Translations under genes and position numbers: made by a program | From: Flavobacterium sp. | GTDB taxonomy: Bacteria; Bacteroidota; Bacteroidia; Flavobacteriales; Flavobacteriaceae | Assembly: GCA_004296145.1 (NCBI GenBank) | Contig: SEBM01000002.1 | Coordinates: forward strand, 1 to 36,415 | DNA: 36,415 nucleotides | Direction: 5' to 3' | Notes under the pieces: model-generated | What the model saw: only the letters and a program-made list of their open reading frames with translations | The model's database searches: none | Told to the model about the DNA's origin: nothing | Shown here: positions 6,655 to 16,327 of the stretch, one piece after another | Layout of the letters: each line of letters begins with the position of its first letter | Position numbering within the stretch: position 1 is the first letter of the stretch

Positions 6655-6709
6655 TTTGTTTCAGGTTTCAGGTTTTATTTTGTTTCAGGTTTAATCTATA
6701 CGTTTATTT

Positions 6710-10419: not shown

Positions 10420-11628
10420 TTAAATATTATTTGCCACAATAAAACCGCTTGTCCATGCATTTTGAAAATTAAAACCGCCTGTAATCGCATCGATATTTAC
10501 AATTTCACCCGCAAAATAAAGATTTTCATGCAGTTTACTTTCCATAGTTTTAAAGTTAATTTCCTTTAAATCGATTCCGCCTGCGGTTACAAATTCTTCC
10601 TTAAAAGTACTTTTTCCGTTTACCTGAAATTTGGCTTTTGTAAGCTGTAAAGCCAGATTTTGCAACTGATTTTTAGATAAATCTGCCCATTTTGTTTCTT
10701 CATTAATATCTGAAGCCAAAACTAAACTTTCCCACAAACGATTCGGAAAATCAAAAGGAGATTTTTTAGAAACCGCTTTTTTAGCATGTTCCTGTTTTAA
10801 GTCTTTCAGAATTTTTTCGGCATCTTCTGTATCAACATCATTCAGCCAATTTACGAAAATCGTAAACTGATAATTTTTATCGTGCAAAATCCTCGCGCCC
10901 CAAGCCGAAAGTTTTAAAATTGCAGGTCCGCTCATTCCCCAATGCGTGATTAATAAAGGTCCTGTAGATTCTAATTTAGTATCTTTTACATTCACGGTAA
11001 CTTGTGCCGCAACACCGGGTAATTCTTTTATACGGGAATCTTTGATATTAAAAGTAAATAGGGAAGGAACGGGACTTACAATGGCGTGACCTTGTTCTTG
11101 CAACATTTCCCAAATTTTAGGATTGCTTCCGGTTGCCATTACTAATTTTTCACAAGCGTAATTTTCACTTTGTGTATCAATTTTCCAATGGTTTTCTTTT
11201 TTGAAAATAGATTGAACACTTTGACCCGTCAATACTTTTATGCCTAATTTTTCGGTTGCTTTTAAAAAACAATCGATAATAGTTTGTGATGAATTTGAAA
11301 CTGGAAACATTCGCCCGTCTTCTTCGATTTTTAATTCAACACCATGTTTTTCAAACCATTCGATAGTGTCGCCGGAACAAAATTGATGAAATGGCCCGCG
11401 AAGTTCTTTTTCGCCACGCGGATAAAATTTTACTAATTCGTTTGGCTCAAAACAAGCGTGTGTCACGTTGCATCGCCCGCCTCCGGAAACGCGGACTTTA
11501 GAAAGGACTTCTTTTCCTCTTTCTAAAATAGCAATTTTCAGTTTCGGATTTTTCTCAGCAATATTAATGGCTGTAAAAAATCCTGCAGCACCTCCGCCAA
11601 CGATTATTATGTCGAAATTTTTAATCAT
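10420..11628 (-). CDS. FAD/NAD(P)-dependent oxidoreductase, HI0933/YhiN (BaiN-like) family
   Basis: FDIIIVGGGAAGFFTAINIAEKNP; SGGGRCNVTHACF; FAGEIVNIDAITGGFNFQNAWTSG; start moved to MIKNFD because the longer ORF runs into a palindromic repeat. Confidence 0.9.
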   Translation of the reverse strand: MIKNFDIIIVGGGAAGFFTAINIAEKNPKLKIAILERGKEVLSKVRVSGGGRCNVTHACFEPNELVKFYPRGEKELRGPFHQFCSGDTIEWFEKHGVELKIEEDGRMFPVSNSSQTIIDCFLKATEKLGIKVLTGQSVQSIFKKENHWKIDTQSENYACEKLVMATGSNPKIWEMLQEQGHAIVSPVPSLFTFNIKDSRIKELPGVAAQVTVNVKDTKLESTGPLLITHWGMSGPAILKLSAWGARILHDKNYQFTIFVNWLNDVDTEDAEKILKDLKQEHAKKAVSKKSPFDFPNRLWESLVLASDINEETKWADLSKNQLQNLALQLTKAKFQVNGKSTFKEEFVTAGGIDLKEINFKTMESKLHENLYFAGEIVNIDAITGGFNFQNAWTSGFIVANNI

Positions 11629-11637
11629 ATTTTTTTT

Positions 11638-11741
11638 GCCACGAATTTCACGAATTGGCACTAATTTTTTTTGCCACAGATTTAAATGATTTACACAAAT
11701 TCTTTTAAAATTAATTCGTGAAAATTTGTGCAATTCGTGGC
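11638..11741. repeat. Imperfect palindromic intergenic element (CACGAATT family), composite copy
   Basis: GCCACGAATT (11638-11647) pairs with AATTCGTGGC (11732-11741); internal CACGAATT/CACAAATT and revcomp units. Confidence 0.75.
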
Positions 11742-11751
11742 TAACTTTACT

Positions 11752-12435
11752 TTATATTTTGTCTGGAAAATCACTAATGATTCCGTTTACTTTGTAACTT
11801 TTTATTTTTTGAATGTCTTCTTCAATATTGACTGTCCACGGTAAAACCAGAAAATCTTTTTCCTGGATTTCCTTTACACTTTCTGCATTCAATAAATGAT
11901 AATACGGATGAATGGCTTTTGCTTTTATTGTTTCGGCGAAAGCCACAGCCAAATCAAGATTGGTTTCTGCTAAAACTCCAATCGGAATTTTAGAATCTAA
12001 ATTTTGGACGTGTTGTAAAGCATTCCAGTCAAAACTCGAAACGATAAAATGATCGTAACTCCATTTTTTATCAGAAACATATTCGTCGATCAAAGAAACA
12101 ACTTTCGTTAAAGTATCGGCGTTTTTTAATTCGATATTGATGAAACATTTTTTGTTTACAAGATCAAAAACTTCTTTTAAAGTTGGAATTTCGTGTTGAT
12201 CTGCAATTCGAAAAGACTTTAATTCGGATAAAGAAAATGTATTTACATGACCTTTTCCGTTGGTCATTTTATCGATGGTTTCGTCGTGAATTACGATAAC
12301 ATGTCCGTCAGCACTTAAGTGAACGTCGAGTTCGATTCCGTCTGAATCTAGGTCTAAGGCTTTTTGAAAAGCTTTTAGCGTGTTTTCAGGTTCGTATGCT
12401 TTGGCGCCTCTGTGTGCTATTTTCAGCATTTGCAT
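11752..12435 (-). CDS. Glycerophosphodiester phosphodiesterase family protein
   Basis: KIAHRGAKAYEPENTLKAFQKALDLDSDGIELDVHLSADGHVIVIHDETIDKMTNG; start at M 12435 or 12429, the longer ORF start lies in a repeat. Confidence 0.92.
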   Translation of the reverse strand: MQMLKIAHRGAKAYEPENTLKAFQKALDLDSDGIELDVHLSADGHVIVIHDETIDKMTNGKGHVNTFSLSELKSFRIADQHEIPTLKEVFDLVNKKCFINIELKNADTLTKVVSLIDEYVSDKKWSYDHFIVSSFDWNALQHVQNLDSKIPIGVLAETNLDLAVAFAETIKAKAIHPYYHLLNAESVKEIQEKDFLVLPWTVNIEEDIQKIKSYKVNGIISDFPDKI

Positions 12436-12446
12436 GTGATAAAAAT

Positions 12447-12542
12447 TTAACCGCAAAGGTCGCAAAGTTTTACGCAAGGTTCGCAAAGTTTTTTATAATC
12501 TTTGCGAACCTTGCGATTTTCCCTTGCGACCTTTGCGGTTAA
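12447..12542. repeat. Long palindromic intergenic element (CGCAAAG family)
   Basis: TTAACCGCAAAGGTCGCAA (12447-12465) / TTGCGACCTTTGCGGTTAA (12524-12542), 19 bp perfect; CGCAAGGTTCGCAAAG (12473-12488) / CTTTGCGAACCTTGCG (12500-12515), 16 bp perfect. Confidence 0.92.
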
Positions 12543-12545
12543 GTT

Positions 12546-14213
12546 TTAGATTGTTTCTAATAAAATAATTCCATATTTACTATCAATAATCACTTTTCCA
12601 TCAATAACTTCCGTTTCCTGATCAGAGAAACAGTCTTTTACTTTAGTTCCGTTTTCGAAAATTGAATTTACAGGAAGTTCTTTTTTTCCTTCTGGTAAAT
12701 CCAAACCAATTATTACTTTATCTGTAAACGATCCATTTGAATAAGTTCTTGAGAAGACGTAATGTTCACTTCCTATTTTTGAATGGATTCCGGCACCAAC
12801 AGCAGGATGATTTCGTCTAAACTGCCCTAATTTCTGCCAATGCCAAAGCATTCTTTGCGTTTCAGGATTGTTTTGAATATCGTCCCAATTCATGTTCGAA
12901 CGCAAGGTGGCATCTCCCTGAGCGTCTTTAATTACCAAAGAGCGATTCGATTCGTCGCCATAGTAAACCTGAGATATTCCGGGTGAAAGCAATAATTTAG
13001 TTCCTGCTTCAAAACCTCTTGAGCGATTGGCATCAAAGGGTTGTCCGTCGTCGTGTGAAGACATATAATTAAGGACAGAATAACCTTTTAACTCATTATT
13101 TAAATGATTGGAATATTTCGAAAACAAAGTCTCATAATCGCTTTGTCCGGCATTCCATTTAAACTCAAAATTAATCATGCTGTTGAAGCCGTTTTGGAAA
13201 TAATTTACTTTTCGGTCTCCAAAATCATAATCCTGACCACCGCTGATTCCGTAACCGTAAACTTCTGCAATCGTATAAAACGGGTTTTGATCTAAAACCT
13301 GAAGTGGATGATGCTGTTTCCAATTCGCGAAAGCGTACTCGCATTCTTTCTTGAAATCGGCCCAAACGCCTTCTTCGGTATGTTTTACCGTATCAGCGCG
13401 GTAACCGTCAATTCCGAATTCCGTTATATAATCAGTTAGCCATTTTATAATATAATATTTCGGACTTCTTGGATAACCTGTTCTTTTGAAGAAAGCGTCA
13501 AGTGAAGCAATTTCTTTTTCGTAACGGCCTTCTTTTTTCCATTTTTCTATTAAAAAAGGCGGAAGTTCGACGTTTTGAGTGCTTTCAGTCTTAACATCCG
13601 GAAGATTTTCGACCAAAGTACACATTGTTGTGTTTTCGAAAGATTTATAATCGCAGACAACGCCAGTGCGAACCCAATCAGAAGGCCAAACAGGATCTTC
13701 TTCGGTTACAGGTCCAGTGTGATTGATAACGCCATCTAGAACAATTCTGATGCCGTGTTCGTGCGCTTTTTTAACCAGTTTAGCTAAATCTTCTTTTGTT
13801 CCAAAATTTGGGTCTAATGCTGTCCAGTCTTTTGCCCAATAACCATGAAAACCATAGCTAAGTCCGGTTCCTTCATCAACGCCGTCGTGAATCTGTTCTA
13901 CAATCGGAGTAAACCAAATAGCATTTATTCCGAGTTTGTCAAAATAACCTTCTTCGATTTTTTTGGTAATTCCTATAATGTCACCGCCTTCAAATCCGCG
14001 GAGTTTTCCGGGAGTTTTGGTTCGGTTAAAATTGATGTCGTTCGATTTATCTCCGTTGTAAAAACGGTCTGTAAGTAAAAAATAAACATTTGCGCCTTCC
14101 CAAAAGAAAGGTGTTTTTGAAGTATTGTCTTTATTCATTGAAACTGATTTTGAGCCAGAACAACCCATAATTATGAATACTAAAGATAAACAAAGGATAG
14201 CGTATTTTTTCAT
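12546..14213 (-). CDS. GH13 alpha-amylase family lipoprotein
   Basis: Lipobox MGC; DGYRADTVKHTE, TIAEVYGYG, YMSSHDDGQPF contain the GH13 catalytic triad. Confidence 0.92.
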   Translation of the reverse strand: MKKYAILCLSLVFIIMGCSGSKSVSMNKDNTSKTPFFWEGANVYFLLTDRFYNGDKSNDINFNRTKTPGKLRGFEGGDIIGITKKIEEGYFDKLGINAIWFTPIVEQIHDGVDEGTGLSYGFHGYWAKDWTALDPNFGTKEDLAKLVKKAHEHGIRIVLDGVINHTGPVTEEDPVWPSDWVRTGVVCDYKSFENTTMCTLVENLPDVKTESTQNVELPPFLIEKWKKEGRYEKEIASLDAFFKRTGYPRSPKYYIIKWLTDYITEFGIDGYRADTVKHTEEGVWADFKKECEYAFANWKQHHPLQVLDQNPFYTIAEVYGYGISGGQDYDFGDRKVNYFQNGFNSMINFEFKWNAGQSDYETLFSKYSNHLNNELKGYSVLNYMSSHDDGQPFDANRSRGFEAGTKLLLSPGISQVYYGDESNRSLVIKDAQGDATLRSNMNWDDIQNNPETQRMLWHWQKLGQFRRNHPAVGAGIHSKIGSEHYVFSRTYSNGSFTDKVIIGLDLPEGKKELPVNSIFENGTKVKDCFSDQETEVIDGKVIIDSKYGIILLETI

Positions 14214-14255
14214 TATTTAGAAATTTTTTAGACGTACATAATGTTGAAAAAAATA

Positions 14256-14316
14256 GCCACGAATTCACGAATTTTTATTCTTAAAGATTGTAAAAAATAA
14301 TTCGTGAATTCGTGGC
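14256..14316. repeat. Palindromic intergenic element (CACGAATT family)
   Basis: GCCACGAATTCACGAATT (14256-14273) / AATTCGTGAATTCGTGGC (14299-14316), 18 bp perfect, 25-nt loop. Confidence 0.93.
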
Positions 14317-14328
14317 GAAAAAAAATAG

Positions 14329-14403
14329 TTTCTCGCAGATCTTGCAGATCAGCAGATTTTCTTTTTAAATTATCTGCTCAATCTCCTAAATCTGCGAGAG
14401 AAA
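14329..14403. repeat. Imperfect palindromic intergenic element (GCAGAT family)
   Basis: TCTCGCAGAT / ATCTGCGAGA outer arms and AGCAGAT / ATCTGCT inner arms; arm units TCGCAGATC-TTGCAGATC-AGCAGAT. Confidence 0.82.
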
Positions 14404-14410
14404 TATATTG

Positions 14411-16267
14411 TTATTCTAACTCTAAAACTAAAGCCGATTTTGGTTCCAATTTAATTTCAGAACTTAAATCAAATGTTTTTCCTGTGATCACATCTTTTCC
14501 TGATTTAAAGTTTTTGATGTTTTCTTTAAAACGGTTTGTTTTTACAATTTGCTCTTTTGCATTGTTATTGAAAACTACCATTACGGTTTTAGCATCTGTA
14601 TATCTGAAATACACATAAGTATTGTTTTCCGGAATATAATGTGTCATTTTTCCGAAATGCACAGCTTCGTTTGTTTTTCTCCAGTTGAATAATTTTGAAG
14701 TGAAATCAAAGTAAGAAGCTTGTTGTGTCGTTCTTCCTTCTTTTGTGAAAGCATTGTTTTTATCGCCAGCCCATCCGCCTGGGAAATCCTGACGAATATC
14801 GGCATCGCCTTTGCTTTTGTCTCCGCCCATTCCGATTTCTGAACCGTAATAAACTTGTGGAATTCCACGAATAGTAGCTAACAAAGTCATCGCCAGTTTA
14901 TATTTTGGAAGATCGTATTTGAACTTATCATTCATACGATCTGTATCGTGATTTTCGGCAAAAACCAAAATGTTATTTGTGTTTGGATATAAAAAATCCA
15001 TTGCAAAATTGTTGTAGAATTTAATCAATCCGTTGTCCCAAGTTGGTTCGTCTTCGTTGAAAGTAGAAGTTACCTGACTTTGAAGCGTAAAATCCATTAC
15101 ACTTGGAAGATTCGAATTGTAGTTTTCAATTGCCCCAACTTTACTGTCTTTTTGCCAAAACGATAAATTTGCCTGATTGTGCATCCAGATTTCACCTACA
15201 ATATTAAAGTTTGGATATTCATCTGTAATCGCTTTTGCCCAATTTGACATTGCTGTTTTGTCTGAATAATTATAAGTATCAACACGGAAACCGTCAAGAT
15301 TTGCAAATTCAATCCACCAAATCGCGTTTTGCGTTAAGTATTTTGCCACAAGCGGATTTCTTAAATTTAAATCGGGCATAGAAGGCACAAACCAGCCATC
15401 AACACAAACTTCTTGATCTGTTTTTGAAGCGTGAATATCTGTAATAACCTCGCGTCTGTGATGTGTCTGTGTGAAAGTTTCGAATTGGTTGAACCAGGTT
15501 TTGGTTGGAATATCTTTCATCATCCAATGCGTAATTCCCCAGTGATTGGTTACATAATCCATAACCAGTTTCATGTTCTTTTTGTGCATTTCTGCAGATA
15601 AACGAGCGTAATCGTCATTTGTTCCGTAACGCGGATCGATTTTGTAAACATCAGATTGTCCGTAAGTATGGTATGAATGCTGTTTGTCGTTGTCTTCGCA
15701 TAAAGGTGTGCTCCAGATTGTCGTTGCGCCAAGAGACGAAATATAATCTAAGTTTTTGATAATTCCTTCGATATCTCCGCCGTGACGCCCGCCCGGTTCT
15801 GCGCGGTTTCCTTTTTCAGTTAAAGTTGCATCACTGTCGTTTTTCGGATTTCCGTTAGCAAAACGATCCGGCATAATTAAATACATCATGTCTGATGCAT
15901 CGTAACTTTTTCTGTCGGCTGAATTGGATCTTCTTTCTTTAAGAGAATATTTTTGAGTAAAAGCGACTTTATTTTTCAATTTAAAAGAAAAAATAAGTTC
16001 AGATGCTTTTAAGTTTTGTGTGTCAATTGTAATGAAAACGTAGTTAGGGTTTTCTGTTTTTTCTACATTTTTAATCGCAACATTGTTAGAAACCGAAGCT
16101 TCATATTGTGCAATGTTTTTTCCGTAGAACATGATTTGTACTTCCGGATTTTTCATTCCCGCGTACCAGAAAGGCGGTTCTACTTTTTGGATTTGCGCTT
16201 TCGCGGAAGCGGTAAATAAGAGAACTAGTAGAATTAGTTTATAAAATGAATGTTTTTGTGTGTTCAT
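14411..16267 (-). CDS. GH13 neopullulanase/cyclomaltodextrinase-like enzyme (SusA-like), exported
   Basis: Signal peptide; N-terminal PPFWYAGMKNPEVQIMFYGKNI (cyclomaltodextrinase N-domain-like); DGFRVDTYNYSD, IVGEIWMHN, FAENHDTDRM. Confidence 0.92.
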   Translation of the reverse strand: MNTQKHSFYKLILLVLLFTASAKAQIQKVEPPFWYAGMKNPEVQIMFYGKNIAQYEASVSNNVAIKNVEKTENPNYVFITIDTQNLKASELIFSFKLKNKVAFTQKYSLKERRSNSADRKSYDASDMMYLIMPDRFANGNPKNDSDATLTEKGNRAEPGGRHGGDIEGIIKNLDYISSLGATTIWSTPLCEDNDKQHSYHTYGQSDVYKIDPRYGTNDDYARLSAEMHKKNMKLVMDYVTNHWGITHWMMKDIPTKTWFNQFETFTQTHHRREVITDIHASKTDQEVCVDGWFVPSMPDLNLRNPLVAKYLTQNAIWWIEFANLDGFRVDTYNYSDKTAMSNWAKAITDEYPNFNIVGEIWMHNQANLSFWQKDSKVGAIENYNSNLPSVMDFTLQSQVTSTFNEDEPTWDNGLIKFYNNFAMDFLYPNTNNILVFAENHDTDRMNDKFKYDLPKYKLAMTLLATIRGIPQVYYGSEIGMGGDKSKGDADIRQDFPGGWAGDKNNAFTKEGRTTQQASYFDFTSKLFNWRKTNEAVHFGKMTHYIPENNTYVYFRYTDAKTVMVVFNNNAKEQIVKTNRFKENIKNFKSGKDVITGKTFDLSSEIKLEPKSALVLELE

Positions 16268-16327
16268 AGTATGTAGTTTTTAGTTTCCTGAAGGCTTTCT
16301 AAAACCTTGCAGATATATTGTTTGTTT

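Follow-up and report, generated by a model that had tools for sequence, protein, structure and literature searches.

The gaps around a glycerophosphodiester phosphodiesterase-like gene and an alpha-amylase-like gene of Flavobacterium sp. hold several short palindromes that differ in sequence and resemble each other in design. They lie in the 36,415-nucleotide stretch analyzed here (contig SEBM01000002.1, positions 1 to 36,415; the window), and they raise the question of whether they belong to one system and of what copies them. The accepted model links REPs to RAYT, and to our knowledge dispersed palindromes outside Proteobacteria are little characterized. The original prediction, made from the letters of the window, supposed a single generating system and named slippage plus template switching, or a REP-type transposase, as its possible source.

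Palindromes of the window and their word arrays

The palindrome cluster was confirmed as real and ordered. A mechanical inverted-repeat search found the gaps within positions 11638-14400 filled by four palindromes of three families (Table 1), as had been predicted, and none of 200 shuffles equaled any of them when folded as single-stranded DNA (z-scores of -5.6 for A1, -13.3 for B, -8.6 for A2, and -4.6 for C). With a strict ungapped score, two palindromes of the window (B and A2) were detected, whereas 100 dinucleotide shuffles averaged 0.05. The families are defined by the words CACGAATT (A), CGCAAAG (B), GCAGAT (C), and GCCACAGATT (D). The count of three families held for A, B, and C, but A1 additionally holds half of a D element; the right arm of D is absent from the A1 loop and present in relatives by syntenic comparison. 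The left arm of B contains four words (CGCAAAG/CGCAAGG), each arm of A2 has two words at a pitch of 8, and the outer ends of C are TCTCGC/GCGAGA. A near-copy of the A2 loop was found at other gaps in related species.

Table 1. Coordinates of the palindromes, word arrays, and flanking genes of the window, followed by small sequence pieces in other stretches. Positions of GCTTCGCCnGTTCGCTATCGCTCGGGT sites are those in the fetched stretches, and (-) marks a position counted on the reverse complement.
Feature	Position	Strand	Description
Aminoacetone oxidase family FAD-binding enzyme (TIGR00275)	10420..11631	-	Flanking gene
A1	about 11635-11744	.	Family A; 38-nt arms, 79% complementary; words CACGAATT/CACTAATT at a pitch of 9-10 nt; loop carries D left arm
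D left arm (GCCACAGATT...)	11673..11702	+	In A1 loop
Glycerophosphodiester phosphodiesterase-like	11752..12432	-	Under curated cutoff of equivalog model
B	about 12442-12547	.	Outer arms 24 nt, 96%; inner arms 19 nt
Alpha-amylase-like	12546..14213	-	Under curated cutoffs of equivalog models
A2	14256..14316	.	Short family A; 24-nt arms, 92%
C	about 14329-14400	.	19-nt arms, 84%; GCAGAT at 9-nt pitch
Glycoside hydrolase, maltodextrin glucosidase/cyclomaltodextrinase type	14411..16267	-	Under curated equivalog cutoffs
CAGGTTT word array	6661..6692	+	Three words, without partner arm
GCTTCGCCnGTTCGCTATCGCTCGGGT sites, G375	92972; 173969; 363895(-)		
GCTTCGCCnGTTCGCTATCGCTCGGGT site, G538	224391(-)		
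GCTTCGCCnGTTCGCTATCGCTCGGGT sites, G553	37002; 104462(-)		
TCCCGA..TCGGGA examples, G375	144990; 173865		
TCCCGA..TCGGGA example, G538	130356		
TCCCGA..TCGGGA example, L083	5375		
TCCCGA..TCGGGA example, L084	3292		

Two further sites had been named as possible relatives. The half element proposed at 6.66 kb is an array of CAGGTTT words, but its partner arm is absent. The same word also occurs beside other elements elsewhere, for example at L073, where CAGGTTT-word arms surround half of a B element together with a TCCCGA palindrome (positions 2100-2290). The decayed sequence at 16268-16327 looks more like a simple hairpin family, AAGGTTT..AAAACCTTG (TACAAGGTTT..AAACCTTGTAGG), than like the periodic-arm class.

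Words were scanned in a total of 1.69 Mb from the source genome (a 4.76-Mb assembly of 1047 contigs, of which those scanned were picked for holding words) and three related genomes. Adjacent words were 9 nt apart in 121/204 pairs for A, 105/156 for B, and 46/69 for C. The arms are thus periodic above random expectation, and three unrelated words share one pitch, which bears out the idea of one design in unrelated sequences and was counted in favor of the explanation preferred below. Autocorrelation of the pooled arms peaked at a lag of 9 (0.357 versus 0.262 in one shuffle); by eye, some arm families in G375 and G553 look 7- and 8-nt periodic. Genome-wide dispersal was evident from 54 A, 66 B, and 38 C word pairs in the source genome, where reversed controls gave 0, 0, and 1, respectively. 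A de novo inverted-repeat scan of 1.07 Mb from three relatives likewise detected 58, 57, and 44 palindromes in 400, 400, and 275 kb, compared to 0, 2, and 0 after one block-shuffle of each.

Within the order, 21 of 298 genomes had the A word pair, most of them in the same genus. Occurrence across the phylum was patchy: of 297 genomes in 140 genera, 47 (30 genera) had the B pair and 31 (17 genera) the C pair. Some of the single B and C matches are chance, because a few reversed controls matched too. A few exact copies were also seen in viral contigs (8 A and 43 B stretches). No account of families A to D was found in the open-access literature searched, in agreement with the suggestion that the elements are under-described.

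Gene context and constraint on words and arms

The elements had been expected to be strictly intergenic. This was the case for 127 of 131 paired A-D elements, which lay outside ORFs though coding sequence makes up 87% of the DNA, but not for the remaining four; ORF calling relied on a simple length criterion, and the starts are therefore approximate. Gaps holding paired elements were co-directional in 99 cases, convergent in 14, and divergent in 7, and the divergent class was depleted (about 23 expected from gap base pairs by our own arithmetic). In the co-directional gaps, the upstream stop was the nearer end for 78/99 elements. Element edges are T-rich 5' and A-rich 3' of the arms.

Hairpins that follow stop codons could be ordinary bidirectional intrinsic terminators, but in the same genomes short-loop hairpins have the opposite tract polarity, with A on the left and T on the right in about 82-89%. 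A terminator consensus scan found no terminator at the elements, and a stem followed by a T-run was not found among them. Intrinsic terminators were therefore rejected as candidates, and we give this reading hardly any probability.

Positions within the elements differed in how freely they varied. In the set of 76 paired A copies, departures from consensus amounted to 0-3% in the ATT core and 7-8% at the preceding A, compared to 17% and 38% for the G of CACGAATT, and the spacer had no consensus. The profile recurs among orthologous A copies, indicating that the pattern holds in place: change amounted to 2-8% at AATT, 4-7% at CAC, and 20% at the G position, with 12% in the non-word interior and 8.5% in the flank. 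B and C showed the same trend, more weakly. A cruder split of orthologue change gave 7.1% for words, 11.6% for the loop, 16.2% for the rest of the arm, and 9.1% for the flank. At orthologous sites the words appear to evolve at a lower rate than the intervening bases, which is support rather than proof because the orthologue pairs of the gap panel overlap phylogenetically and are not independent; the word mask also has some ascertainment.

Spacers of A and B were also compared across arms. Complementarity was found in 27/40 cases for A versus 13.2 shuffled and in 14/31 for B versus 7.7 (word-exact copies, 18/31 versus 10.1). When mismatched words were allowed, A spacers disagreed in 46% versus 66%, and the B excess was weak, present at one of two spacer columns, or gone. 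Among A-D orthologues, 68 changes were one-sided (55 breaking and 13 of the G-U type) versus 4 paired double changes, and compensatory upkeep of base pairs was not evident in this set. Because arm spacers match but orthologue changes are one-sided, copies seem to start as matched palindromes whose arms then drift. Neighboring spacers within an arm were no more alike than shuffled ones (7/22 versus 5.2 for A), and slippage as the sole source was therefore rejected. The template-switching part of the original prediction is possible: the arms match at variable spacers beyond chance (A and word-exact B), but this matching is not kept after species split.

The same data bear on the elements as selected regulatory RNA hairpins, serving 3' end stability or operon attenuation. 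The hairpins are strong, sit just past stop codons, and are depleted between divergent genes, as such a role would lead one to expect. However, the primary words rather than the pairing are conserved, compensatory changes are few, and copies appear and disappear at a given gap from one related species to the next. Rfam returned no family at gathering score, with sub-threshold matches to eukaryotic miRNA and snoRNA models only. We regard an RNA function of this kind as unlikely.

Y1 transposases and known palindromic repeats

REP/REPIN elements moved by RAYT, the second source proposed, are also small, palindromic, and intergenic and lack target duplication, and Y1 genes are common in the genus: Y1_Tnp matches were present in 18 of 31 genomes. 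However, A-D word clusters were absent within 1.5 kb of the Y1 genes at all 21 loci, and G161, where 3 A, 2 B, and 12 C word pairs were counted, gave no Y1 match. Several Y1 loci are adjoined by other hairpins, such as CCCACGGTTTCAACCGTGGG and CAACGGATTTTAATCCGTTG (palindrome scan of 13 loci and inspection of the flanks of six), and two of those Y1 proteins scored above the NCBIfam IS200 cutoff and under the REP-transposase cutoff. A RAYT gene flanked by two inverted copies of an A-D element was not encountered at the 21 Y1 loci. The terminal tetranucleotide head of the GTAG/GTGG type was absent from the copies inspected, whose edges are GCCAC, AACCGC, and CTCGC. The A-D elements do have the high copy number and extragenic location of REPs. 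They are explained neither by terminators nor by RAYT, and movement by RAYT is, in our estimate, very improbable. The families share a measurable rule (word, pitch, and loop nesting) yet have no tie to RAYT.

REP-like hairpin clusters were observed beside IS200/Y1 genes at L014 (1958-2052), L012 (1245-1372), and L013 (1378-1470), and hairpins and genes together are apparently a REP-type system of the genus. These hairpins look different from A-D and provide an internal contrast within the same genus.

The REPs known so far have been reported to flank RAYT genes (PMC2817692). Like the REP, BIME, and REPIN elements associated with RAYT (PMC2817692, PMC3116915), the A-D elements are small dispersed intergenic palindromes, often clustered, near gene ends, and without obvious target duplication. 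Unlike them, A-D have arms built of 9-nt word arrays and no visible GT(A/G)G head, do not flank a RAYT gene, are longer (60-190 nt) and loop-nested, and have constrained words with pairing that is not maintained. CGTC-tagged palindromes are reported from Bacteroidetes, and GTAG- and CGTC-tagged palindromes are likewise multi-copy palindromic repeats (PMC3733652), but their tag is a terminal tetranucleotide, whereas the termini of A-D are GCC, AACC, or CTC beside T/A tracts; the CGTC type is set apart here by its description, not base by base. The RepRanger survey has two Flavobacterium genomes in a table of REP counts, and its relevant passage on the genus is limited to counts, without families, arm periodicity, or nesting (PMC12306157).

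Turnover at orthologous gaps and a putative copying route

Comparison of orthologous gaps revealed gain and replacement between species, as anticipated. No element occupies the A1 gap in G347 and G348, where the genes meet at GATCATATTTTATC, and the gap is filled in all other relatives that could be anchored; the genes also abut in outgroups such as G074, G421, and G469 (BLAST pieces). Insertion has split a stop/start pair that overlaps in relatives, an example of how the palindromes reshape operon junctions. Same-gap comparison also showed D in place of A, A within D, chimeras of an A left arm and a D right arm, and, in G538, a D(A) within B. Extra elements in occupied gaps lay in the loop in 10 of 15 cases versus 2.2 expected (source genome and G538); most of this signal comes from G538, since the source genome alone gives just 2/6 versus 0.9.

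The filled A1 site has the 7-nt match ATATTTT on both flanks, which is a single copy when the site is empty. This match, together with inverted ends that hold word arrays, would agree with MITE-type remnants of a DDE transposon, the long inverted ends carrying several transposase binding words. MITEs (reviewed in PMC10969869) resemble A-D in being short, noncoding, and dispersed, with inverted ends; they differ from A-D, which show no target duplication signal, have periodic arms, and yielded no parent transposase. The flank matches of 130 elements were the same as those of shuffled pairings, with A1 as the one ambiguous 7-nt case of target-site duplication. A search of 1.7 Mb and 66 named loci for word-flanked spans of 0.3-6 kb gave a single one (525 bp); this span aside, no parent transposase with the same ends was seen in that DNA, and neither an autonomous copy nor a factor acting in trans was detected there. 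Loop nesting and half elements also argue against MITE remnants, a reading that is already weakened and that we consider quite unlikely. The 30 A and 30 B copies compared in the source genome included no near-identical ones (best identity, 0.85 for A and 0.84 for B), and no recent spread is therefore seen in this genome.

A close rival to the explanation that we prefer involves no transposition proper. A hairpin would stall replication, and the polymerase would switch to a similar element or to the other arm and copy a stretch of it. Such template switching, or ectopic conversion, would rebuild palindromes, exchange them, and nest them in each other. At one site, either A2 or D follows TTGAAAAAAATAGCCAC, so that the family changes while the left junction stays the same; A-left/D-right chimeras and an interlocked A-D-A-D order were also seen. 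Given these swaps and chimeric arms, conversion or template exchange fits at least as well as insertion. The E and H pieces within arms, the absence of a target duplication signal, and arms that match at spacers also speak for it. However, template switching alone fails to explain how an empty overlapping stop/start junction was filled, spacer matching is not kept up after divergence, and adjacent spacers are not homogenized. We consider it possible, with some doubt.

The explanation that we tentatively prefer is that the elements are REP-like, RAYT-unlinked, dispersed word-array palindromes copied via single-stranded or hairpin DNA by a putative factor, and our confidence in this mechanism is modest. 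In location the elements are REP/BIME-like, and each arm is an array in which a short set of words, specific to the family, recurs about every 9 nt; the words would be the recognized part. A sequence-specific factor may bind the word array as a duplex or as an extruded hairpin, which would be the source of the constraint. A new copy would be a near-perfect palindrome, probably placed through single-stranded or hairpin DNA without visible target-site duplication, and the preferred targets would be the region immediately 3' of a gene and the loop of a palindrome already in place. Afterward the arms, words excepted, would drift apart. This explanation draws on the observed pitch, dispersal, slower change of words, spacer matching across arms, lack of later compensation, loop nesting, empty site, and lack of linkage to Y1/RAYT genes; the recognizing factor and the copying route are inferred. 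Against it stand the failure to find a trans-acting factor or autonomous element, the lack of recent spread in the source genome, and the family swaps and chimeric arms. The shared rule offers a direct handle on the putative factor, as a binder of CACNAATT, CGCAAAG, or GCAGAT arrays. A more far-reaching view, which we hold to be doubtful, is that palindromes defined by recognition-word arrays of fixed pitch (about 9 nt) are mobile DNA of a class of their own. The factor spreading them would read the array and home in on the loops and arms of hairpins, and one machinery, involving neither RAYT nor a DDE transposase, would serve several families across Bacteroidota. New here are the slower evolution of the words, the unmaintained spacer matching, the loop nesting, the empty gap in two relatives, and the absence of detectable target duplication.

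Smaller pieces were also observed within the elements. In 6/6 cases, the 27-nt nonpalindromic piece GCTTCGCCnGTTCGCTATCGCTCGGGT is located precisely at the AATT^CGTGGC point of an A element; in the 66 named Flavobacterium stretches it was found after GTGnAATT, a context demanded by the search pattern itself. Another copy lies within a C arm. Small TCCCGA..TCGGGA palindromes occur within the arms of A, B, D, and other palindromes, where by eye they seem to replace 4-6 nt. At L061 (6042-6498), a B element and its flank are repeated three times in tandem, with a unit of about 157 bp.
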